Shown here: piece by piece, positions 1 to 50,913 of the stretch
Layout: the number at the start of each line of letters is the position of its first letter
How positions within the stretch are numbered: the first letter of the stretch is position 1
NCBI GenBank assembly: GCA_026002995.1
Contig: BPGK01000001.1
Location: 682,001-746,000 of the forward strand
Direction: 5' to 3'
Length of the DNA stretch: 64,000 bases
DNA from: Gaiellaceae bacterium
GTDB lineage: Bacteria > Actinomycetota > Thermoleophilia > Gaiellales > Gaiellaceae
Translations under genes and position numbers: made by a program
Notes under the pieces: model-generated
Seen by the model: the letters and a program-made list of their open reading frames with translations, nothing else
Told to the model about the DNA's origin: nothing
Database searches by the model: none

Positions 1-195
1 TTCGCTGCCCGTGACGTCGAGGCGTTCGACCGCGATCTCATGTACTTCGGCGAGGATGGCCGTCCGCGCTTCATGCCGCCGCCGGATGCGCCGGCGACGG
101 AGATCGCGCACCGCTACTCGCCGCGGAGGCGGCAGACGCTCGACCCGAGGCCACCCGAGCCGTACCGCACCTTCGAGGAGGGTGATCGCGCGTGA
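1..195 (+). CDS. C-terminal end of an unidentified protein (partial)
   Basis: The window opens inside this gene. Only the last 64 codons are visible, in the frame beginning at base 1 and ending at TGA 193-195. The tail is polar and rich in Asp, Arg and Pro, and no domain can be named from it. Its stop overlaps the GTG of the next gene by four bases (GTGA), so translation is probably coupled and it belongs to the same transcript as the isomerase-like and ThuA-like genes. A role in sugar catabolism is inferred from position only. Confidence 0.6.
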   Translation, partial: FAARDVEAFDRDLMYFGEDGRPRFMPPPDAPATEIAHRYSPRRRQTLDPRPPEPYRTFEEGDRA

Positions 196-1103
196 GCGCG
201 ATCGAGGGCGGGCGCCCCGGGCTGCTGCGGCGCTGCGGGATCAGCCAGTGCACGACTCCCACGCTCACCGCGGCGGAGGCGGCAGCGCTGTACGCCGAGG
301 CTGGTTTCGGCGCGATCGGCGTGTGGCTGCACAAGCTCGAGCGACCCGACTGGACGGGGGGCTTCTTCGTGCCGGAGGTCGAGCTCGCGCCGGCCCTCGT
401 CGAAGAGACGGCATCCGACCTGCGGGCGAGCGGCCTCGTCGTCTCCCACGTCGTTCTCGGGGGCTTCTTCGTCACCGACGACGAGGAGCTCCGCCGGCGC
501 CGGGTTCGCTCGACCGTGCGGGCGCTCGACGTCGCGGAGGCGCTCGGCGCGACCTGCCTCGTCATCGCTCCCGGCCGGCTCGAAGGCCGCCCGGTCACGT
601 GGGCGCACGACTGTGCGTCCCGCTCCCTGAGCGAGGTGCTCGAGCTCCGCTCCGAGAGCTCCGTTCGCCTCGGTCTCGAACCGGTGATCGCCTGGCAGAG
701 CGACTACATGTGCTCCATCGCGCGCGCCCTCGAGCTCGTCGAGCTCGTCGACCACCCGCGGCTCGGCGTCTTCCTCGACAACTTCCACCTCTGGCACAAC
801 GCCGACTGGGACACCCCGTTCGTCCTCGAGGAGGTCGAGCGCGCCGGCCCGCACATCGTCGGCGTCCACGTCAACGACGGCGTTCGCGGCTCCGAGGAGC
901 GAGCACTCCCGGGAGAAGGCGAGATGCCGGTGGCGGAGTTCGTGGCGGCTGTCGAGCGGACGGGATACGACGGCTCGTACGACGTCGAGTACGTCTACGA
1001 CGCGGGCCGCATCGCCGCCGAGCCGGATTCGTTCGCGCCCGAGGCGGTGGTTGCACGCTGTCACGCCGGCCTGGAGAAGGTCCTCGCCGGAGTGCTCGGG
1101 TGA
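192..1103 (+). CDS. Sugar phosphate isomerase/epimerase-like TIM-barrel protein
   Basis: 303 residues with the layout of the xylose-isomerase-like (AP endonuclease 2) TIM-barrel superfamily, whose members isomerise or epimerise sugars and inositol derivatives in the cytoplasm using a divalent metal. Likely metal ligands are visible in order: Glu in LGLEPVIAW, Asp/His in FLDNFHLWH, His in GVHVND and Glu in DVEYVYD. The GTG start overlaps the stop of the preceding gene, and the stop overlaps the GTG of the ThuA-like gene. The substrate cannot be read from sequence. The ABC sugar importer encoded opposite and the ThuA neighbour suggest processing of an imported sugar. Confidence 0.8.
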   Translation: MSAIEGGRPGLLRRCGISQCTTPTLTAAEAAALYAEAGFGAIGVWLHKLERPDWTGGFFVPEVELAPALVEETASDLRASGLVVSHVVLGGFFVTDDEELRRRRVRSTVRALDVAEALGATCLVIAPGRLEGRPVTWAHDCASRSLSEVLELRSESSVRLGLEPVIAWQSDYMCSIARALELVELVDHPRLGVFLDNFHLWHNADWDTPFVLEEVERAGPHIVGVHVNDGVRGSEERALPGEGEMPVAEFVAAVERTGYDGSYDVEYVYDAGRIAAEPDSFAPEAVVARCHAGLEKVLAGVLG

Positions 1104-2020
1104 GCGCTCCGCCCCGATCGTCGAGCGAGCGGCTGGCCGCGCTCCTCCTCACGGGCCACGACCACTTCCACCACCGCTGGCGTCACGCGGCTTCTCTTAC
1201 GCGCGACACGCTCGAGGCGTCGGGGCGCTTCTCCGTGGACGTGAGCGAGGAGCCGGAGCGGGTGACGAGGGCGTTGCTCGCCCGCTACGACTGCGTGCTC
1301 GTCTCGTACTTCGGCGCGCGGGTGCCGGGCGAACCGGAGATCCGCTGGGGTTCTCACGCCGAGGCAGCACTCTTCGACTTCGTGCGCGGGGGTGGGGGCA
1401 TCGTGCTCCTGCACACGACCTTCGCGATGGGCGCGACCTGGGACGATCCCCACGCCGACGAGCTCCTCCGCCTGGCGGGCGGGCTGCTCGGCCCGGAGAG
1501 CCGACGAGCTCCTGGCGAGCGGTTCCTGGTCGAGGTCGAGGCTCCCACGAATCCCATTACGAACGGGCTCCCGCGCTCTTGGGAGCAGCCGGTCGACGAC
1601 AAGTTCGTGCACCTGCGTTGGCACCCGGACGCCTCGCCGCACGTGCTCGCAACGGTCGTGGACGAGCCGGAGGCGTATCTCGGCGGCGCGTACTACGCGA
1701 TCCGCGGCCTTCCCGGGCCGCCGCTTTCGACCGACGAGGAGGTGCGCCTCCTCCCGGGCGTCGGCGAGCGCCACCCGGTGGCGTGGACGAACGCGTACGG
1801 CGAAGGGCGCGTGTTCGCGCTCATGCTCGGCCACGTCGGCGCGAGCACGATCGAGGATGCGCGCGCGAGCCTGAAGCAGGGACGGGAGGTAGGGCCGACG
1901 GTGGATGTCGCGGCGCGCACTCCCGAGTACGTCGGCCTCCTCCTGCGTGGCACGGAGTGGGCGGCGACCGGCGGCGTGACGCTTCAGCTCCCCGCCTTCG
2001 CCTCCGAGCCCTCGCCGTAG
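1100..2020 (+). CDS. ThuA-like (trehalose utilisation) domain protein
   Basis: 306 residues from the GTG that overlaps the previous stop. The protein matches the ThuA fold, a class I glutamine-amidotransferase-like flavodoxin fold. It has an N-terminal strand LLLTGHDHFHHRW, a central RGGGGIVLLHTTFA segment, a VDDKFVHL segment, and a C-terminal PVAWTNAYGEGRVFALMLGH motif typical of the family. ThuA proteins occur in trehalose and other disaccharide catabolic operons, where a role in 3-keto-sugar metabolism has been proposed. Here it ends a three-gene unit and meets the ABC transporter ATPase gene tail to tail with a 19-base gap. The exact reaction is unknown. Confidence 0.8.
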   Translation: MSAPPRSSSERLAALLLTGHDHFHHRWRHAASLTRDTLEASGRFSVDVSEEPERVTRALLARYDCVLVSYFGARVPGEPEIRWGSHAEAALFDFVRGGGGIVLLHTTFAMGATWDDPHADELLRLAGGLLGPESRRAPGERFLVEVEAPTNPITNGLPRSWEQPVDDKFVHLRWHPDASPHVLATVVDEPEAYLGGAYYAIRGLPGPPLSTDEEVRLLPGVGERHPVAWTNAYGEGRVFALMLGHVGASTIEDARASLKQGREVGPTVDVAARTPEYVGLLLRGTEWAATGGVTLQLPAFASEPSP

Positions 2021-2039: not shown

Positions 2040-3239
2040 TCAGCGGATGGCGGCGCCGGTCTCGAGGTCGAAGAAGTGGAGGCGATCGACGGCGACCGCG
2101 AACTCGAACGGGCCCCGCGGTGGGGGGCTGGCGGTGATGTCGAAGCGCGCGCAGGCGAGCACGAACCGCTCCTGAGCGAGCTCCTCGAGGCGTTCGACCG
2201 CCGCCGCGTCGACGTCCTGAGCGAGCTCGAGGACGTCTTCGGTGACGACGGGTGGCGCCTCGACCGTTGCGTACACGAGCCGCTCGGGAGGAAGCGCCTC
2301 GTCGAACTTCACGTCGCCTCGCAGCCTCGGGAGCGCAGGATCGGAGGAGCGGGCGTCGAGCAGGTGCTCCGGCCGGATCCCGACCGCGAGCTCCCGATCG
2401 GCGTACGCCGCGAGCCCGAGCCTCCGCGCGAGCGTGTGCTCCGGGAGTGGAACTCGCTGCTCGCCGATGGCGCACGCGAGACCACTGCCGTCGTTCTCGA
2501 GTCGGCCCCGGAAGAGGTTCATCGCCGGTGAGCCGATGAACTCGGCCACGAAGAGGTTCGCGGGCTCGTCATAGAGGAGCTCGGGCGGTCCGTGCTGCTG
2601 GAGAACCCCTCTGCGCAGGACGGCGATGCGGTCGCCCATCGTCATCGCCTCGACCTGGTCGTGCGTGACGAAGATCGTCGTGACGCCGAGCTCCTCTTGG
2701 AGCCGCGTGATCTCGCTGCGCATCTGGACGCGAAGCTTGGCGTCGAGGTTCGAGAGGGGCTCGTCCATGAGGAACACCTGGGGCTGGCGTACGATCGCGC
2801 GCCCCATCGCCACCCGCTGGCGCTGCCCACCCGACAGGTGGCGCGGACGCCGGCCGAGCTGCTCCTCGAGGCCGAGGAGGGCTGCCGCCTGCTGGACGCG
2901 CTCGCGGATCTCGCGTTTGGGGACGCGCTGGCAGCGGAGTGGGAAGGCGATGTTGTCGAAGACGCTCATGTGCGGGTAGAGCGCGTAGTTCTGGAACACC
3001 ATCGCGACGTCGCGGTCCTGGGGCGCGAGGTCGTTCACGACTCGGTCCCCGATCCGGATCTCCCCGTCCGTCACCTCCTCGAGCCCTGCGACCATCCGCA
3101 GCGCCGTCGTCTTACCGCAGCCGGACGGGCCGACGAAGACGACGAGCTCGCCGTCTGCGATGTCGAGCTCGAACCCGACGAGGGCTCTCGTGCCGTCGGG
3201 GTACGTCTTGCTCACGTTCGAGAACGTCACCGGTGCCAT
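2040..3239 (-). CDS. Carbohydrate ABC transporter ATP-binding protein (UgpC/MsmK/MalK type)
   Basis: 399 residues. Walker [10 protein letters not shown] is at 37-45, the Q-loop in [10 protein letters not shown] near 81, the signature LSGGQ at 135-139 and Walker B FLMDE at 156-160. A long C-terminal regulatory (TOBE/MOI-like) part fills residues 240-399, as in MalK/UgpC proteins that energise sugar importers. It is the last gene of the leftward operon, 9 bases after the MalG-type permease. Such ATPases often serve several sugar importers in a cell. Length and motifs are normal. Confidence 0.93.
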
Positions 3240-3248
3240 CGATCGCTC

Positions 3249-4073
3249 CTAGGTCTTGATCCCGCCCGTGAAGCCGCGGATGAGTTGCCGTTGCGCGACG
3301 ACGAAGAAGCAGAGCGCAGGAAGAAGCGCGACGATAACCGCTGCGAACACGAGGTTCCAGCGCGAGGCGAACTCGGCGACGAAGGAGTACACGGCGACGG
3401 GCAGGGGGGTGTTGTCGGTGCCACTGAGGAAGATGAGCGCGAGGAAGAAGTCGTTCCAGATGATGAGTCCGGTGAAGATCGCGACCGTCCCCGTGACGGG
3501 ACGAAGCAGGGGGAAGACGACCCTCCAGAAGATCCGAAGCTGGCTCGCTCCGTCTACCCGGGCCGCCTCCTCGTAGTCCCGCGGCAGCGCTCGCGCGAAC
3601 CCTGTGTAGAGGAAGACGGAGAACGGCATCCAGACCCCCGTGTAGAAGAGGATCAGTCCGAGGTACGTGCCGACGAGGCCGAGCTCGCGAAGCGCGGCAT
3701 ACGTGGGGACGAGGCCGAGCTGGAAGGGGAGGATGATCCCGATCACGAAGAGGAGGTAGAGGGTGGTGCTCATCGCGCCCGCTCTGCGGGCGATCGTGTA
3801 CGCGCAGAGAGAGCCGAGGGCGACGAGGAGGACGACGGTTCCGACGGTGAGGATCACGCTGTTGGCGAGCGCTCGGCCGAGCGACCCTTCCGTCCAGGCG
3901 GTTCCGAAGTTCCCGAGCTCGATCTGGCTCGGGAAGCTGAGCGGTGAGGCGAGCGCCTCGAGGTCGGGCTTCAGCGCGATGGTGACGAGGAAGTACAAGG
4001 GGATCCACCAGAGCGCCGCGAGCGCGAACAGCGCGAGCTCGCGGATGAGCGTCCGCCACGTGTAGCGGTGCAC
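3249..4073 (-). CDS. Carbohydrate ABC transporter permease, MalG type
   Basis: 274 residues with about six membrane segments, the first at 12-34. The EAA loop reads YEEAARVDGASQLRIFWRVV in the second half, the site that docks on the ATPase. This is the shorter permease (MalG/UgpE-like) of a two-permease CUT1 sugar importer. The GTG start lies 1 base after the end of the upstream permease stop region, so the two permeases are translationally linked. The C-terminus ends GFTGGIKT, typical of the family. Confidence 0.92.
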   Translation of the reverse strand: MHRYTWRTLIRELALFALAALWWIPLYFLVTIALKPDLEALASPLSFPSQIELGNFGTAWTEGSLGRALANSVILTVGTVVLLVALGSLCAYTIARRAGAMSTTLYLLFVIGIILPFQLGLVPTYAALRELGLVGTYLGLILFYTGVWMPFSVFLYTGFARALPRDYEEAARVDGASQLRIFWRVVFPLLRPVTGTVAIFTGLIIWNDFFLALIFLSGTDNTPLPVAVYSFVAEFASRWNLVFAAVIVALLPALCFFVVAQRQLIRGFTGGIKT

Positions 4074-4074
4074 C

Positions 4075-5004
4075 TCAGATCCTCCGTTCTCGGTAGCGGA
4101 GCACCGCGAGCTGCGCCAGTGCCATCGCCGTAATGAGGACGGTGAGGATCAGAGAGAGCGCAGCCCCGTACCCGTACCGCCCGAAGGCGAAGGTTTGTTT
4201 GTAGATCTGCGTCGCCAACGTCTCGGAGGCGTCGACCGGCCCACCTCCCGTCAGAGCGAGCACCTGGTCGAAGACGCCGAGGCCGTAGACGAGGCTGAGC
4301 GTCACGCTCACCGTGAACGCCGGCGCGAGGAGCGGGAGGGTGATCGTCCGGAAGCGGCGAAGCGTTGACGCGCCGTCGACCGCCGCAGCTTCGTCCAGCT
4401 CCTCGGGGATCCCGGCGAGACCCGAGAGGTACATCACCATGGCGAGCCCGGCGAACTGCCACACGAGGACGACGAAGATTGTCCACAGCGCCCAGGTGGG
4501 GTCGCCCGTCCACGCCCGTTGCCAGGAGTCGAGCCCCACCGCGTCGAGGAAGCGGTTGAGCGGGCCCGTGTAGCTGAAGATGAACTGCCAGATGTAGGAG
4601 ACGGCGAGCGAGCTCATGACGACCGGCGCGAAGAAGAGGGCTCTGAGGAGGATCCTCGTCTTGAGCGTGCGGTGCAGCGCGAGAGCGAGGAGGAGGCCGA
4701 TGACGTTCGCGGCGACGACGAACGTGACTGCGAGGACGATCGTGTTCTCGAGCGCTCCACGCGAGGCCGGGTTGTCGAGGATCTCGCGGAAGTTGTCGAG
4801 GCCGATGAACTGCGCCTCGCGGCTGATCCCGTTCCAGTCGGTGAAGGCGTACCACCCTCCGGCTGCAGTCGCGACGTAGCGCAGGAGGAGGACGAGGACG
4901 AGTGCCGGGAGGACCCAGACCCACGGAACCTGCGGCAGGCCGCTGCGCCTCCGGCGGCGCCGCGCCGCAGGCCGGGCGTTGGTACTCCCGGCGGGGACGC
5001 TCAT
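4075..5004 (-). CDS. Carbohydrate ABC transporter permease, MalF type
   Basis: 309 residues. A basic, Arg-rich N-terminus (residues 10-20) is followed by a first membrane segment and five more. The EAA loop reads LDEAAAVDGASTLRRFRTI. This is the MalF/UgpA-like partner of the downstream permease in a CUT1 importer. A strong hairpin lies just upstream of its ATG, between it and the binding-protein gene, which should lower its expression relative to the binding protein. Confidence 0.92.
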   Translation of the reverse strand: MSVPAGSTNARPAARRRRRRSGLPQVPWVWVLPALVLVLLLRYVATAAGGWYAFTDWNGISREAQFIGLDNFREILDNPASRGALENTIVLAVTFVVAANVIGLLLALALHRTLKTRILLRALFFAPVVMSSLAVSYIWQFIFSYTGPLNRFLDAVGLDSWQRAWTGDPTWALWTIFVVLVWQFAGLAMVMYLSGLAGIPEELDEAAAVDGASTLRRFRTITLPLLAPAFTVSVTLSLVYGLGVFDQVLALTGGGPVDASETLATQIYKQTFAFGRYGYGAALSLILTVLITAMALAQLAVLRYRERRI

Positions 5005-5100: not shown

Positions 5101-6414
5101 TTACCCGGATGCCCAGGCGGCGTCCATCTCCTGGAGCACCTGGAGGGGCGTGCGCTGGCCGGTGAGGAGGCCCTGCACACCCTTGCCGAGCGTCTCGAAG
5201 ACGGCGGGGTTTCGCCACTCGAGGTTCATGAGGGGATGCACCCGCTTCGACTGCTTGAGCAGCGGCGCGAGGCCGCGGAGCTCCCACGCGAGGTGGCGAC
5301 CCTTCTTCGCCTGGTAGAGGGAGGCGGCACCCGTGAGCTTCGCGTACAGACCGCCCGCTTGCGGTGTCGCCCAGAAGTCGACGAACCGGTTCGCCGCCTC
5401 GCGGACGCGGGTTCGCGAGTAGATGGCGAACGCGTCGTTCGGGGAGGCGTACACCTGCGTGTCAGCGGCCTTGTCCCCGGGCATCGCGAAGAAGTTGTAC
5501 TGCGCGTTCCGGTTGAAGCTCTTGATGAGCCCGACGATCGAGCTCGGGAGCACCCACGAGGCCACCTGGCCGGACACGAACCCCGGCGTCGCCGGGACGT
5601 TGTCGTTGCCCTCCGCTCCGGGCGGGAAGCAGCCCGCGTTCTTCATGTCCACGATCCGCTGCAGGGCGGTTCGCCAGGCCGGCGTGCCGGCGAAGGTGAC
5701 CCGGTTCCGGAGCCGCTTCTGGTTCCACTGTGGATCCTTCGCGAGGACGTAGCTACCCGCGACGACGACGCCGAAGAGCCCGGCGTTCTGCGCGCTCGCT
5801 CCGGCGAGGTTGAGGAAGCGCTTGCCACCGGCCACAGCCCGCCGACACGCGTTCAGGAACTGCGCCATCGTCGTCGGAACCCGGATTCCGAGCTGCTCGA
5901 GCACGGCCGGCTGGTGGAGGACCCCGACGGGGACGACGTTGATGGGCACTGCGTACAGCCGGTTCCCGATCCAGTACAGGTGCCGAGCGTTCTCGGGCAC
6001 GTAGTCCTTCGCCCACGGCCGCCGCGAGAGGTCGGCGACGTACCCTTCACGGGCGAGCGGCAGCACCGACTGGAGGCCGCCGGAGCCGGCCGTGACGTAG
6101 AAGACATCGGGGGCGTTGCCCGCCTGGAGCTGCGTGCGCAACGCTTGCGCGTAGGCGGTCCCGATGGGGAGGTACGTCGCGTCGACCTTGATGTTCGGGT
6201 ACCGCTGCTCGAACTTCTCGATGACCGCCTGCAGCTGCGTGTTCCCGCCCGCACCGGTCGACTGCGCGAGCAGCTTCAGGGTGACGGTCTGTGCCGGCGC
6301 CCCGCTCGCGTTCACGGAGAGGGCGAGCGCTCCGGCGAGCGCAGCCAGGAGCGCGAGCGCCGTCGGCCGCGGACGACGGCGCGACGCGCGACCTTCGCTT
6401 CGATCTCTCTGCAC
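5101..6414 (-). CDS. Extracellular sugar-binding protein of ABC transporter
   Basis: 437 residues from GTG 6414, chosen because AAGGAGG lies 5 bases upstream; an earlier in-frame GTG at 6429 would place this ribosome site inside the gene. A basic N-terminus and a hydrophobic segment (about residues 19-35) ending near GAPAQ form a signal peptide. There is no lipobox Cys, so attachment may be by other means. The mature part has the family-1 solute-binding layout (FEQRYPNIKVDATYLPIGTA near the start, FVSGQVASWVLPSS in the middle). It captures the imported sugar, identity unknown, and delivers it to the two permeases downstream. Confidence 0.9.
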   Translation of the reverse strand: MQRDRSEGRASRRRPRPTALALLAALAGALALSVNASGAPAQTVTLKLLAQSTGAGGNTQLQAVIEKFEQRYPNIKVDATYLPIGTAYAQALRTQLQAGNAPDVFYVTAGSGGLQSVLPLAREGYVADLSRRPWAKDYVPENARHLYWIGNRLYAVPINVVPVGVLHQPAVLEQLGIRVPTTMAQFLNACRRAVAGGKRFLNLAGASAQNAGLFGVVVAGSYVLAKDPQWNQKRLRNRVTFAGTPAWRTALQRIVDMKNAGCFPPGAEGNDNVPATPGFVSGQVASWVLPSSIVGLIKSFNRNAQYNFFAMPGDKAADTQVYASPNDAFAIYSRTRVREAANRFVDFWATPQAGGLYAKLTGAASLYQAKKGRHLAWELRGLAPLLKQSKRVHPLMNLEWRNPAVFETLGKGVQGLLTGQRTPLQVLQEMDAAWASG

Positions 6415-6454
6415 AACTACCTCCTTCACTGGTCGAGCCTGCCTTCCGAACGGT

Positions 6455-7444
6455 TCATGCGAGCACCGGGCTCGTCTGCTCGATGAGACGAGCGAGGTGC
6501 GCGTGGTGTTGTCTTGCCAGCGCGAACGGGTCGACCTCGTCCGCCTCGAGCCAGGCGCCGCCGCCCCACTCGCTGCAGACGAAGCGGTCGTACCCTCCTT
6601 CGCGCAGGACTGCGATCAGCTCCGCGTCCCGGGTGGCCGGGTCGTCGCCGAGGGAGTCGAGCTCCCACACCTTCGCGTGCACGTGGACGATCGAGGGCAC
6701 GTACGGACGCCACGCCTCCGGGTCCTGGCGCCCGAAGCGCACGAAGCCCGAGCGTGCGAGGTCGAGCGCGGACTGAGGAGCCTCGCTGCGCTCGAGCATG
6801 CGGAGGATCTCTCCCGTGCGCGCGCCTCGCTCCCACCGGGAGATGACGTCCTCGAGCGCGTCGGCCGGAAAGCCAGCCTCGAGGACCGCGCTCACGAAGG
6901 TCGAGGGGACGCGGCGCATGGCGACGCTGAAGTCGAGGACGAGCCCGAGCCCCGGGCTCGACAGCCGCTCGAGGAGCTCGAGCAGCGGGGCGACCGCTGG
7001 GTCGTCCGGTCGCTGGTCGCCCTGCACCTCCGTGGCGACGACGACACCCGCACGCTCGGCCCGGGGGGCGATGCCTTCGAGCACCTCGAGCGGGACACCG
7101 CTCGGGATCCGAGCGACGGGGAACGAGAGCCTCCCTGCCATCTCGACCTGCGCGCCGAGCTCCTCGAGCGCCTCGGCATGCGTGAGGCGGCGGTCGCTCC
7201 GGCGGAAGAGGTCGACGTAGATCCCGAGCGCTGCCGGCTCGAGCTCGAGCTCCTCGAGGAGGGCGCGGAAGGAGCGAATCTCTGCGTGGTCGAGCTCCGG
7301 GAACGCTCGCCAGAGCTGGTGTCCGATCACTTCGATCCCGTCGGGAGCTCCGGCATGCGCGATCCGGCCGAGCAGGTCCGAGGGCGTGAGCTCGCCGGCG
7401 AGCCACTCCTCGGCGAACGAGAACGTGCTCGATGCGCGCCTCAT
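6455..7444 (-). CDS. Xylose-isomerase-like TIM-barrel protein, first gene of sugar operon
   Basis: 329 residues. The sequence has the alternating strand/helix pattern of a sugar-phosphate isomerase/epimerase-like TIM barrel: GIEVIGHQLW, GIYVDLF, VVVATEVQGDQ, LGLVLDFSVAM, IVHVHAKVWEL and FVCSEWGGG. Acidic and His residues at strand ends could bind a metal (Glu in ATEVQ, Asp in LDFSV, His in HVHAK, Glu in CSEWG). It is the promoter-proximal gene of the operon that continues with the binding protein 40 bases downstream. It is probably a catabolic enzyme for the imported sugar; the reaction is unknown. Confidence 0.75.
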   Translation of the reverse strand: MRRASSTFSFAEEWLAGELTPSDLLGRIAHAGAPDGIEVIGHQLWRAFPELDHAEIRSFRALLEELELEPAALGIYVDLFRRSDRRLTHAEALEELGAQVEMAGRLSFPVARIPSGVPLEVLEGIAPRAERAGVVVATEVQGDQRPDDPAVAPLLELLERLSSPGLGLVLDFSVAMRRVPSTFVSAVLEAGFPADALEDVISRWERGARTGEILRMLERSEAPQSALDLARSGFVRFGRQDPEAWRPYVPSIVHVHAKVWELDSLGDDPATRDAELIAVLREGGYDRFVCSEWGGGAWLEADEVDPFALARQHHAHLARLIEQTSPVLA

Positions 7445-7463
7445 CGGCTGAACGAGTAGGTTA

Positions 7464-7475
7464 GAACCTGAGTTC
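7464..7475. promoter_or_regulatory. Candidate TetR operator 1, at start of sugar operon transcript
   Basis: GAACCTGAGTTC is an imperfect 12-bp palindrome with GAAC and GTTC half-sites spaced by 4. It lies immediately downstream of the -10 box at 7486-7491 and 20 bases before the isomerase ATG, a position that would block transcription. Two further copies flank the tetR start region. Binding is inferred from position and repetition. Confidence 0.6.
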
Positions 7476-7485
7476 GGATTCGCGA

Positions 7486-7514
7486 CTTATACAGCGCACG
7501 TCTCGCGCCGTCAA
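7486..7514 (-). promoter_or_regulatory. Sigma70-type promoter of the sugar operon
   Basis: Read on the minus strand: TTGACG (7514-7509), a 17-base spacer, then TATAAG (7491-7486). It is one of the best -35/-10 pairs in the window. Transcription would begin near 7479, giving a leader of about 35 bases that contains the GAAC-N4-GTTC palindrome. Confidence 0.75.
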
Positions 7515-7587
7515 GCGATCCGAGCCGTCGCCCTCGTCCGGCTCCGCGACGGCGTTCGCGCTGCGGATGGTTTGGCTTGCCGGGCGC

Positions 7588-8232
7588 TCAGGCCTGCGAG
7601 CCGGGCTCGCTCAGCAGGTAGGCGGCGCAGGCGTTGCCGATCTCGGAGACGAGGTCGTCCCAGGGGATCGGGCGATCGCTCTCGAAGGTCGGGCCGTACA
7701 TGACCTGTCTCGCGAACGTGCAGTACGCCATCCGGTAGGCGACGTCGACGGCCTTCTCCGGGTCGGGGTGCCGAATCTCCCCTCGATGCTCGAGCACCGC
7801 CGCCGCGAAGCGATGGGCGAGGTCGATGCTGCTCTCCGATCCTCGCTTGGCGATCGCTTCGTCGACTGCGCCGAGGTGCATGAAGGCGCGAAGGAGATCC
7901 TCTCGCTCGCGGAAGATGTCTGCCACCCGCCGCACCGCGGCGACCACCGCCTCGCGGGCGTTGGCGGCGTCGCGCTCCTCGGCTGCGAGTTCCTCGTGGC
8001 GGGCCTCGATGGACGCCATCGTGTCCATGTGCACCGCTCGCAGGAGCCCGACCTTGCTTCCGAACCGCGCGTAGATCGCCCCGACGGACACGCCGGCGCG
8101 CTGACTCGCGTCTTGGATCGTGAAGCCGTCGAAACCGCGCTCCTCGAGGAGGCTCTTCGATGCCGTGAGCACGCGTTCGAGCGAAGCGTGGCTTCGCTTC
8201 TGCTTCGGTGGGCGTATCGTCGTCTCAGCCAT
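7588..8232 (-). CDS. TetR/AcrR family transcriptional regulator
   Basis: 214 residues from ATG 8232, chosen because CAGGGGA lies 8 bases upstream; an ATG at 8241 and a TTG at 8271 are also in frame, but the latter would place the operator inside the gene. The N-terminal helix-turn-helix (residues 12-58) contains FTIQDASQRAGVSVGAIYARFGSK, the usual TetR recognition region (F..I..iA..aGvs.g..Y.hF..K). The rest is a helical ligand-binding domain without recognisable specificity. It probably represses itself, the divergent oxidoreductase and the sugar operon through GAAC-N4-GTTC sites. The inducer is unknown. Confidence 0.9.
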   Translation of the reverse strand: MAETTIRPPKQKRSHASLERVLTASKSLLEERGFDGFTIQDASQRAGVSVGAIYARFGSKVGLLRAVHMDTMASIEARHEELAAEERDAANAREAVVAAVRRVADIFREREDLLRAFMHLGAVDEAIAKRGSESSIDLAHRFAAAVLEHRGEIRHPDPEKAVDVAYRMAYCTFARQVMYGPTFESDRPIPWDDLVSEIGNACAAYLLSEPGSQA

Positions 8233-8253
8233 CCCGTCCATCCCCTGGAAGTG

Positions 8254-8265
8254 AATTCGAGTTCT
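8254..8265. promoter_or_regulatory. Candidate TetR operator 2, in tetR promoter
   Basis: GAATTCGAGTTC, related to the GAAC-N4-GTTC palindrome, lies just downstream of an AT-rich AATAAT (minus strand, 8276-8271) that could be the -10 of tetR. This position would give autorepression. It is the weakest of the three copies, with one half-site changed from GAAC to GAAT. Confidence 0.5.
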
Positions 8266-8323
8266 AATCAATTATTGTGTCTGAGGCGCCGGACGGGCGT
8301 CGCCTCGAGCCGAGCATAGAACC

Positions 8324-8350
8324 GAACTCGGGTTCGTGTTCTGGTACAAG
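8324..8350 (+). promoter_or_regulatory. Candidate TetR operator 3 and -10 of the oxidoreductase transcript
   Basis: GAACTCGGGTTC (8324-8335) matches GAAC-N4-GTTC exactly and lies where the -35/spacer region would be. TACAAG (8345-8350) is a -10-like hexamer 6 bases before the ATG of a short leader ORF. A repressor bound here would cover the promoter. Confidence 0.55.
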
Positions 8351-8356
8351 TGCGCC

Positions 8357-8383
8357 ATGGGACGGAGCCCGCACGCCGGGTGA
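8357..8383 (+). CDS. Eight-codon leader peptide overlapping the oxidoreductase start
   Basis: ATG 8357 opens an ORF encoding MGRSPHAG and ending at TGA 8381-8383, which overlaps the GTG start of the oxidoreductase by four bases (GTGA). The ATG lies 6 bases after TACAAG, so it would be the 5' end of a leaderless mRNA. Ribosomes finishing the leader could re-initiate at GTG 8380, which has no good ribosome site of its own. No recognisable attenuator codons are present. The function is inferred. Confidence 0.45.
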   Translation: MGRSPHAG

Positions 8384-9339
8384 TCGCGCTCTGGGTTGCG
8401 CTCCCGTGGGCCGGCCCCGGCGCGTACTACGGGGCCGACGCGGCGGGCATGGCGACACGCCTCGAGAGCCTCGGCGTGGCCGGGGTGACGCAGGGCGACC
8501 ACCTCTTTCTCCCCGGGGTGGCCGCGACCGATCGACGGGCGAGCATGGCGGCGGACTGTCTGACGACGCTCGCCACCATCGCCGCGCACGCACGGCGCCT
8601 CGCGGTGGCAAGTCTCGTCTCCAACATCGGGCTCCAACACCCCCTCCACGTGCTCCGGGCCTTCGCCCAACTCGCGCACCTGTACGGAGGCGAGCGGGTG
8701 TATGCGGGTCTCGGAGCGGGTTGGTCGTCGCGCGAGTTCGAGGCCCTCGGGCTGCCGATGCCGACCCACGCCGAACGGCTCGCGCGACTCGAAGAGGCCG
8801 CTGCTCTCGCGCGGCGGCTCTTCGACGACGGGTGGGCCTCCCTGCGCGGAGAGCATGTCTCGGGGCTCGACGTCCCGCTTGCTCCGGCCCCGGCCGTTCC
8901 GCCACGCCTGTTGCTCGGAGGTGGCTCGGAGGCAGTGCTCGCTCTCGCCGGTCGCTATGCCGACCACGTCGACCTCGCGCCACCTCCGCGACTCGGGGGA
9001 ACCGCGCTGCAGCGCCCTCTCCTCTGCGCCACCGAGGATCTCGTCACGTCCGCGCGGCTGGCACGTGCGGCAGGTCGAGACCTCACCGTATCCCTCCTCC
9101 TCGCCGCATGCGTGTTCTGCGAGTCGTCGGCCGTACGACGCGAGGAGGAGGTGCTGTGCGGGCGATTCGGGTTGCCGTGGCGCGATCTCGCAGACTGTCC
9201 CTACGTCCTCATCGGCGAGCCGGCGCGCATGGCCGAACGCGTGGCCGAGCTCGTCGAGCGGATCGGTCTCGACTGGCTCATCGTTCCCGAGGCCGCTGTC
9301 GAGCGCTTCGCGCGCGAAGTCGTGCCGCTCCTCGGCTGA
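8380..9339 (+). CDS. LLM-class flavin-dependent oxidoreductase (F420/FMN type)
   Basis: About 319 residues from GTG 8380, where the typical family start IALWVALPWAGPGAYY begins; an in-frame GTG at 8350 would add ten unusual residues. Luciferase-like TIM-barrel motifs are visible: GLGAGWSSREFEALGL and the following ERLARLEEAAALARRLF, then PRLLLGGGSEAVLALAGRYADHVD. Such enzymes use F420 or FMN to oxidise or reduce diverse small molecules. It is divergent from tetR with a shared candidate operator, so its substrate may be linked to the sugar operon. Specificity is unknown. Confidence 0.85.
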   Translation: MIALWVALPWAGPGAYYGADAAGMATRLESLGVAGVTQGDHLFLPGVAATDRRASMAADCLTTLATIAAHARRLAVASLVSNIGLQHPLHVLRAFAQLAHLYGGERVYAGLGAGWSSREFEALGLPMPTHAERLARLEEAAALARRLFDDGWASLRGEHVSGLDVPLAPAPAVPPRLLLGGGSEAVLALAGRYADHVDLAPPPRLGGTALQRPLLCATEDLVTSARLARAAGRDLTVSLLLAACVFCESSAVRREEEVLCGRFGLPWRDLADCPYVLIGEPARMAERVAELVERIGLDWLIVPEAAVERFAREVVPLLG

Positions 9340-9400: not shown

Positions 9401-10063
9401 CTACGCTCGCCGCCGCAGGCTCCTGCCCTCGAGCGCGCGCAAGCCTTCGTCGAAGCCGCGCCCGAGGGAGGCCTCGCGCGTTTCGCGTTCCAGGCGACTC
9501 AGCCGTTCGTCGAGCTCGGCGAGCTCGGCGCGCGAGAGCACGGCGGCGGGAGCTCCCGCGCGCTCGCGCTCCTCGAGCAGCGCGGCGCGGCGGTCGAGCT
9601 CGTCGCTGCGCGCGGCGAGCTCGGCCCGGGTGCGGGCGAAGGCCTTCTCCGCCTCCTGGAGCGCGGCGAGCCGCCTCTCGATCTCGGCGAGTCGCTCCTC
9701 CGGCGTCGCCGCCGGGCCGCTCCCGCGCCGCTCGGCCTCGTTCTCCCGCTCCATGAGGGCGCGCTCGCGGGCCGCGAGCTCCTCGGCGCGGCGTTCGAGC
9801 TCCTGCGCGCGGGCCGCGAGGACGACCTCGGCGCGAGAGGAGACGCCATCCTCGCCGACGTCGGCTCCGGGCGCTTCCCGCCGCACGCGTGCGATGGCGT
9901 CCGCGAGCTCGCGCTCGCGACGCTCGACGGCGGCGACGCGCTCGGTCAGCTCGCGGCGCAGCCGGCCGAGCTCCTGCTCGGCCGCGACGCGGATCGCGTG
10001 GATGCGCTCGAGTTCGCTGTCGAGCGAGCCCGCGCGCGGGCGACGGCGACCGAAGAGCGGCAC
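9401..10063 (-). CDS. Coiled-coil protein of unknown function
   Basis: 220 residues. After a short basic head (MPLFGRRRPRAGS) nearly the whole protein is a heptad-rich Glu/Arg/Ala/Leu coiled coil (about 15-205), broken once near residues 67-75 by APGADVGEDG. No membrane segment or signal peptide is present, so it should be cytoplasmic. It resembles actinobacterial DivIVA- or kinesin-like coiled-coil proteins only in composition, so no function is assigned. The GTG start follows TATCAT by 6 bases, consistent with a leaderless transcript. The stop abuts a dispersed repeat. Confidence 0.7.
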   Translation of the reverse strand: MPLFGRRRPRAGSLDSELERIHAIRVAAEQELGRLRRELTERVAAVERRERELADAIARVRREAPGADVGEDGVSSRAEVVLAARAQELERRAEELAARERALMERENEAERRGSGPAATPEERLAEIERRLAALQEAEKAFARTRAELAARSDELDRRAALLEERERAGAPAAVLSRAELAELDERLSRLERETREASLGRGFDEGLRALEGRSLRRRA

Positions 10064-50232: not shown

Positions 50233-50913
50233 GTGTCGGGTGACAGGATCACGCTCCAGGTGCGCGAGCGCACCGAGATCGGCTCGCGCCAGGCGCGCCG
50301 CCTGCGCGCGCAGGGGCTGATCCCGGGCGTCCTCTACGGGAAGGGGCATGCGCGGGCGATCGCCGTGCCCGAGCGTGAGCTCCGCTCGGCGATCACCGGC
50401 CCGTCGGGGCTGCACGCCATCCTGGACGTCGTGCTCGAGGGGCAGAAGACCGTCCATCCGTCCGTCCTCGCCGAGTACCAGCGCGATCCGATCCGCGGCA
50501 CGCTCACCCACATCGACCTCCGCGAGGTGCGGCTCGACCGGCCGATCCAGGCCACGGTGACGGTCAACCTCGTCGGCGAGTCCCCCGGGGTGAAGGCGGG
50601 CGGCGTCCTCTCGCTCGTCACGCGCGAGCTCCAGGTCGAGGCCCTTCCGATGAACATCCCCGAGCACATCGACGTCGATCTCTCCGGGCTCGCGGTCGGG
50701 GACGTGCTCCGCCTGGAGCAGGTCGCGCCTCCCGAGGGCGTCACCTTCCTCGACGACCCCCACGAGACCGTGATCGCGACCGTCTCCGTCCCGCGCGGGC
50801 TCGTGGAGGCGGTGGAGGCCGAGGAGGCCGAGGAGGTCGCCGAGGAGGGGGCTCCGGCGGAGGCTGCGGAGGAAGCCCCGCCCGAGGGCGCGGACGAAGG
50901 CGCAGAGGCCTAG
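50233..50913 (+). CDS. rplY: 50S ribosomal protein L25 / general stress protein Ctc
   Basis: 226 residues. An L25-like N-terminal domain binding 5S rRNA (RERTEIGSRQARRLRAQGLIPGVLYGKG) and a C-terminal CTC domain (THIDLREVRLDRPIQATV), then a Glu/Ala-rich acidic tail. TACAAT lies 8 bases before the GTG, so it may be leaderless. It sits between prs and pth as in other actinobacteria. Confidence 0.95.
   Translation: MSGDRITLQVRERTEIGSRQARRLRAQGLIPGVLYGKGHARAIAVPERELRSAITGPSGLHAILDVVLEGQKTVHPSVLAEYQRDPIRGTLTHIDLREVRLDRPIQATVTVNLVGESPGVKAGGVLSLVTRELQVEALPMNIPEHIDVDLSGLAVGDVLRLEQVAPPEGVTFLDDPHETVIATVSVPRGLVEAVEAEEAEEVAEEGAPAEAAEEAPPEGADEGAEA

Follow-up and report, generated by a model that had tools for sequence, protein, structure and literature searches.

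Three palindromes in a stretch of 64,000 nucleotides (the window, positions 682001-746000 of the single contig of 2,622,036 bases that was searched as the genome) lie near the genes for a TetR-family regulator, a luciferase-like flavin-dependent oxidoreductase (LLM) and an ABC import system. They raise the question of what this TetR commands, and through which sites. A sequence-only reading had proposed that a single TetR governs sugar uptake, its own gene and the flavin enzyme, which might modify the sugar or a signal derived from it. Here we examine the three sites, their recurrence in the genome and before the genes of related TetRs, and the pathway to which the controlled genes might belong.

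Candidate operators and genes in the window

The three palindromic 12-mers, at 7464-7475 (GAACCTGAGTTC), 8253-8264 (GAATTCGAGTTC) and 8324-8335 (GAACTCGGGTTC), are all intergenic and are located 20 nt before the ATG of a deglycosidase alpha-paralogue gene (7444), 21 nt before the tetR ATG (8232) and 15 nt before the GTG start of the LLM gene (8350), respectively (Table 1). All the sites of the sequence-only reading are hence present, with the middle one starting at 8253 and not at 8254, and the letters agree with its half-sites GAAC and GTTC, one of them being GAAT. Its placement of two sites beside a clear -10 box holds for the 7464 site with its TATAAG but not elsewhere: only AATAAT-like bases precede the 8253 site and no convincing promoter was seen at the 8324 site. 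A mechanical scan of 7400-8450 returned no sigma-70 promoters. We consider it very probable that a single TetR repressor binds all three palindromes.

Table 1. Coordinates of genes and candidate regulatory elements in the window
Feature	Position	Strand	Basis or remark
Sugar epimerase/isomerase-like TIM barrel	192..1103	+	Pfam AP_endonuc_2 5e-36
ThuA-like protein	1100..2020	+	Pfam ThuA 8e-24
ABC ATPase, UgpC/MsmX type	2040..3239	-	NF008653 442.8 bits, cutoff 432
ABC permease, GlcU/UgpE type	3249..4073	-	family matches
ABC permease, GlcT/UgpA type	4075..5004	-	family matches
ABC solute-binding protein	5101..6429	-	Pfam SBP_bac_1 9e-27
C-glycoside deglycosidase alpha paralogue	6455..7444	-	AgCarB2 (7dnm) 4e-41; first gene of import operon
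Candidate operator O4, alpha-ABC import operon	7464..7481	-	GAATCCGAACTCAGGTTC; core 7464-7475, third half-site to 7481
Promoter-like TTGACG-N17-TATAAG	7486..7514	-	TTGACG 7509-7514, TATAAG 7486-7491; 4 nt upstream of O4
TetR-family regulator	7588..8232	-	start ATG 8232 preferred; ATG 8241, TTG 8271 possible
Candidate operator O6, before tetR	8253..8264	-	GAACTCGAATTC; no third half-site in register
Candidate operator O5, before LLM gene	8324..8341	-	GAACACGAACCCGAGTTC on minus strand; core 8324-8335
Luciferase-like (F420-type) flavin-dependent oxidoreductase, LLM	8350..9339	+	Pfam Bac_luciferase 1.5e-27

The LLM reaches only the broad Bac_luciferase family, scoring 114.8 bits (4e-33) against TIGR03621, the model for an F420-dependent LLM oxidoreductase with a cutoff of 213, and a search of 295 other genomes of the phylum gave it no match at 1e-30. 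Members of the window alpha family are rare, being found at 1e-15 in two of 299 genomes of the class, its own included. According to the relevant passages of PMC8563793, the metal of the C-glycoside deglycosidase (CGD) AgCGD2 is held by Glu147, Asp179, His269, Lys271 and Glu305, with catalysis by His149 and Glu307; changing the matching His to Ala left 1.8-10.4% activity and replacing the Glu left 1.9-49.8%, in two enzymes. Seven of eight aligned alphas keep this catalytic pair, the exception being the window alpha, which retains all the metal ligands and has Gln141 and Gly294 in place of His149 and Glu307. Because both catalytic residues are replaced, C-C bond cleavage by the known mechanism is unlikely for this protein, and the import operon itself would therefore not be one of plain C-glycoside cleavage. 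A second isomerase-like protein of Agrobacterium is thought, in what the relevant part of PMC10628242 presents as preliminary, to hydrate the released keto-glycal, and we would guess by analogy at such a role for the window alpha. The presence of a degenerate alpha in a transporter operon offers a concrete lead to a step around C-C bond cleavage.

A separate feature of the window is the fivefold occurrence of GAACCGCCGTGC at exact 189-base steps between 35527 and 36294, probably a 189-bp tandem repeat.

Recurrence of the sites in the genome

The genome-wide scan for GAAC-N4-GTTC that the sequence-only reading had advised gave a mixed outcome: the literal pattern occurs at 23 places, two of them window sites, above the nine of the backward control, yet as written it is too unspecific to define the operator and was set aside. 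Allowing one mismatch, the window has 28 places versus 19.6 +/- 4.2 in shuffles. The symmetrical form common to all three sites, GAAYYYRRRTTC, is found at five places in the genome and its backward control at one; since it was fitted to the window sites, the meaningful result is the small number of additional places, just two: one in the coding sequence of the solute-binding protein (window 5877) and a distant one at 50830.

The triple half-site GAA-N3-GAA-N6-TTC was defined from the 7464 and 8324 sites and has seven places in 2.62 Mb (control one forward, none in reverse), leaving five independent ones. Three of these have the triple half-site of O4 and O5 at promoters that lie no more than 15 kb away, just beyond the edge of the window, at genome positions 674801, 678378 and 681328; the other two, at 948395 and 1769850, are far from this neighborhood. 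A looser 18-mer with up to three mismatches ranks the same five places first among 45 rows (backward control four), its three-mismatch matches looking like background. Likewise, GAAYYYRRRTTC with one mismatch has four places in the 20 kb upstream of the window (L048), against 0.86 expected. Three of them, each differing from GAAYYYRRRTTC at one position, stand directly before start codons and are the sites just named (12801, 16378 and 19328 of L048); the fourth is at 9678.

Two of the outside sites further share with the window site at 7464 (689464 of the genome) an identical register, TTGAC(G/C)-N17-(TAAGAT/TACTCT/TATAAG)-N4-operator, which was part of no search pattern used. The hexamers are TTGACG and TAAGAT at 678378 and TTGACC and TACTCT at 681328, and the 12-mer in all three cases lies 20-29 nt before the start codon. 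This register was not found at 674801, 690253 (window 8253) or 690324 (window 8324).

The genome also contains another operator-like family, distinct from this one, with paired GAACACGTGTTC or GAACACATGTTC palindromes whose starts are 16-23 bases apart (G000:C1, 1215041-1215075 and 1546155-1546182).

An adjacent catabolic cluster

The outside sites fall in an upstream cluster of genes, on the same strand, that codes for four beta subunits above the PF19906 cutoff (677547-681261) with alphas adjacent, the arrangement of C-glycoside deglycosidases. It has three further alphas, all of which show the metal ligands Glu/Asp/His/Lys/Glu together with the catalytic His and Glu; alpha1 matches 8qrz, presumably of Deinococcus aerius origin, at 4e-85. 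The beta2 gene (677891-678349; L048 15891-16349) has no alpha directly paired with it, and the window alpha has no beta neighbor. Other products of the cluster are a GMC oxidoreductase, a catechol-2,3-dioxygenase-like protein, an FAD_binding_3 monooxygenase, an FAA hydrolase, a cyclase, an FrsA-like hydrolase, a CoA-transferase pair and the protocatechuate 3,4-dioxygenase subunits PcaG and PcaH, which exceed the NCBIfam cutoffs for alpha and beta (347.7 over 296.4 and 211 over 126.25 bits). The GMC enzyme is below cutoff in all NCBIfam GMC models and best matches glucose and fructose dehydrogenases (5e-32 to 5e-29), with the pyranose-oxidase-type entry 8qve, which we take to be PsG3Ox, at 1.3e-10; no particular closeness to known C-glycoside 3-oxidases was found. 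A plus-strand gene recognized by eye lies past the 681328 site, runs into the window and is followed by the epimerase-like and ThuA genes, the former probably belonging to the plus-strand operon that would start behind this site.

The earlier picture, in which a plain sugar operon is accompanied by an odd flavin enzyme, is not borne out in that form, as the import operon starts with a deglycosidase alpha paralogue and the candidate operators recur at three adjacent promoters of C-glycoside and aromatic genes. Given this pathway, an aromatic aglycone is at least as likely a target of the LLM as a sugar.

Directly left of the cluster, a tRNA-Ala adjoins integrase and plasmid-like genes; by eye, these code for ParB-like, primase-like and excisionase-like proteins and a tyrosine integrase (genome ~658730-662210; L165 16730-20000 and L048 138-210). 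This region is an integrated element or the remnant of one, and a horizontal gain of the catabolic cluster is plausible since such genes border it on the left. A single GAA-N6-TTC place of high symmetry occurs in the L165 segment, left of the cluster, without matching GAAYYYRRRTTC.

The TetR protein and the candidate operators of its relatives

The regulator is a member of the TetR family, matching the Pfam TetR_N domain at 48.3 bits (8e-13; cutoff 24), and its AlphaFold (AF2) model (pLDDT 89.6) has nine helices in an ordinary all-helical two-domain TetR fold. The model resembles many TetRs with Z up to 17.4, the nearest by Z being EthR (Z 17 over 190 residues), with which it shares only 16-17% identity; this similarity of fold says nothing about ligand or operator. 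Against the NCBIfam KstR model it scores 29.5 bits (5e-7) versus a cutoff of 280, and it is hence not a KstR equivalog. No orthologues were found in the same genus or family, where 83 of 101 family genomes had matches, the non-self ones all weak (best 2.7e-16), and at 1e-12 the protein has matches in four of 396 genomes of the phylum, its own included. A 31% identical TetR in the genome G024 (L007) was rejected as an orthologue: its neighbors are others and the only one-mismatch site lies inside the TetR reading frame.

For comparison we used 77 genome loci, picked by TetR similarity alone (~25-42% identity in the best segment), and considered up to 230 bases before 76 of the TetR genes, L092 being dropped from the first and the repeated count for having fewer than 80 upstream bases. 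An earlier control of random segments (5.1% of 3635) was mostly coding, and we therefore redid the count with shuffles of the same regions. GAA-N6-TTC precedes 33 of the 76 genes and is absent before 43, against a shuffled mean of 3.7 and maximum of 9; the stricter AGAAYN4RTTCT precedes 22, the shuffled mean being 0.08. Other spacers gave 17 (N5), 17 (N12), 14 (N0) and 13 (N11), and N7 six versus 3.8 expected. The peaks at N0, N6 and N12 are compatible with additional half-sites spaced 6 bp apart, as in the triple half-site of the window; N5 and N11, also frequent, fall outside this series. The palindrome with its spacing thus recurs before related TetR genes in unrelated phyla, and the residues S52, G54, Y57 and F60 of the HTH region are invariant in 40 aligned TetRs. 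As a side observation, the genome G274 of the same class has four paralogues of the window TetR (L051-L054), three of them beside genes for ABC-type or Tat-exported binding proteins (by eye) and two (L052 and L054) with AGAAYN4RTTCT before them.

An independent instance is the locus of Sphingomonas prati (L089), with a 36% identical TetR, a luciferase-like gene divergent from tetR, CGD alpha and beta genes and a GMC enzyme 35% identical to the one of our genome. It also codes for a GH3 enzyme, a TonB receptor, an MFS sugar transporter and a TIM barrel protein. Five AGAAYN4RTTCT sites occur in its 20.6 kb and none in 100 shuffles; they stand before or near the genes for TonB, tetR/LLM, a Gfo/Idh/MocA-like protein, GMC and a transporter-like protein, the third and the last recognized by eye. 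In Pluralibacter gergoviae (L091) and Pseudomonas sp. BP8 (L097) tetR is divergent from an LLM gene with a GAA-N6-TTC site between them, and the former locus also has FMN reductase, GH3, GMC, FAA hydrolase, cyclase and Rieske genes. These LLMs were discarded as orthologues of the window LLM, with only 26% identity over 125 residues. A divergent LLM gene adjoining tetR is present in three of the 77 loci, these three proteobacterial ones, and any LLM in eight. Within the DNA examined for each locus, CGD subunits occur in one of 77 (L089). Conversely, L049, a CGD cluster in the genome G508 from another family of the same class, with Gfo/Idh/MocA-like oxidoreductases (by eye), has no AGAAYN4RTTCT site, so that not every CGD cluster comes with this operator.

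Taken with the palindromes before the relatives' own genes, the divergent luciferase-like gene in three proteobacteria bears out the core of the earlier proposal, namely that tetR itself, the flavin enzyme gene and the import operon are probably under a single TetR.

A proposed regulon and its alternatives

From the sites and their positions, the promoter register, the gene families and the recurrence with related TetRs, we infer a likely scheme in which the TetR is the repressor of one catabolic regulon for a C-glycoside, probably of a flavonoid, with six promoters. TetR dimers would occupy GAA-N6-TTC palindromes, many of them carrying a third half-site 6 bp beyond, and sites just downstream of the -10 box would allow simple steric repression. 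In the window, the blocked promoters would be those of tetR itself, the LLM gene and the import operon (the alpha paralogue with the ABC transporter); outside it, going by the presumed operon limits, those of beta3-alpha3-beta4-alpha2, of beta2-beta1-alpha1-GMC and of an operon for the extradiol dioxygenase, monooxygenase and hydrolase. The glycoside, its aglycone or an early intermediate would release the TetR. Once imported, the glycoside would be oxidized at the sugar C3 by the GMC enzyme and its C-C bond cut by the alpha/beta deglycosidases; the aglycone would undergo ring hydroxylation and ring cleavage, followed by protocatechuate 3,4-dioxygenase, and the epimerase and ThuA proteins would process the released sugar. 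A flavonoid is the most likely substrate, an aromatic aglycone of this type being favored because PcaGH and the ring hydroxylase/extradiol/hydrolase set are present.

The same regulon could instead serve an aromatic O-glycoside or another aryl sugar, the CGD-like proteins acting on 3-keto-O-glycosides or 3-keto sugars. The GH3 glycosidase in the Pluralibacter cluster, the failure to find CGD subunits in that cluster or in the Pseudomonas locus and the missing catalytic His and Glu of the window alpha all point this way. We nevertheless deem it unlikely in view of the three intact alphas with four PF19906 betas, the match of alpha1 to a solved CGD-type protein at 4e-85 and the rarity of the beta subunits, which exceed the cutoff in two of 296 genomes of the phylum, this one included. 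It is improbable that the TetR controls the three window promoters alone, with the outside sites being due to chance or to another factor: they are indeed each one position off GAAYYYRRRTTC and the 674801 site lacks the shared register, but they fit the triple half-site, which has only two further places in 2.62 Mb, and two of them agree with the 7464 site in the register of -35, -10 and operator. Several families of regulators use palindromic half-sites of the GAA/TTC kind, and the attribution of the sites to the TetR is itself drawn from sequence, so that a different pathway regulator might read them while the TetR regulates something else; the presence of the palindrome and its spacing before related tetRs in unrelated phyla, including at the Sphingomonas C-glycoside genes, makes this a very remote prospect. 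A chance or compositional origin is scarcely credible, for even though the literal pattern is only ~2.5 times as frequent as its backward control, all refined patterns and the cross-genome comparisons speak against it.

Returning to the C-glycoside regulon, we tentatively raise a broader idea, which we regard as possible without favoring it: a TetR subfamily spanning several phyla and acting on GAA-N6-TTC, often with extra half-sites in 6-bp steps, might be a dedicated sensor of glycosides or aglycones, moving together with oxidative (C-)glycoside clusters and with a luciferase-like enzyme in divergent orientation. In this genome it would also command a repurposed degenerate alpha, for example one acting as a 3-keto-glycal hydratase or working with the spare beta in a transport-coupled role. 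Few plant compounds are as resistant as C-glycosides, for whose cleavage enzymes are known; with a repressor defined and six operators proposed for it, the question of the inducer becomes directly testable, and the system provides a candidate biosensor for glycosides or flavonoids.

Comparison with known systems

The search of the open-access literature returned no regulator of C-glycoside deglycosidase clusters, and none is named in the relevant passages of PMC8563793, PMC10646112 and PMC10807413. PheR (PMC13273656) was considered and rejected, being discussed in the relevant part of that source as an IclR-family regulator. In the Herbaspirillum seropedicae fde pathway of naringenin degradation, the flavin monooxygenase FdeE acts on flavonoids (PMC11303751), a likeness by description to the enzymes found here; a difference is that pathway's regulation by FdeR. 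KstR is likewise a TetR repressor of a scattered catabolic regulon and gives a weak NCBIfam match. It differs in that our protein is far below its cutoff, in the N6 spacer between GAA and TTC here and in a pathway unrelated to sterols; its operator half-site, which we presume to be of the GAAC type, resembles the one in the window.

Among the C-glycoside systems, Pseudarthrobacter siccitolerans, a soil actinobacterium, has the GMC flavoenzyme PsG3Ox beside two alpha and two beta genes (PsCGD), as described in part of PMC10646112, whereas the GMC enzyme here is nearer to glucose and fructose dehydrogenases than to 8qve. CarB/CarC, DgpB/DgpC and DfgA/DfgB, as presented in the relevant passages of PMC8563793, resemble the present system in the alpha TIM barrel with a PF19906 beta and in a sugar oxidoreductase gene nearby, and the metal ligands and catalytic His and Glu known from them are kept in three of the four alphas here. 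Unlike these systems, the genome described here has four genes for each of the two subunits, with a degenerate alpha located in a transporter operon, and a candidate regulator with its operator set, of which those passages make no mention. The parts and the principle are of known kinds, and it is their combination that makes for a new variant.
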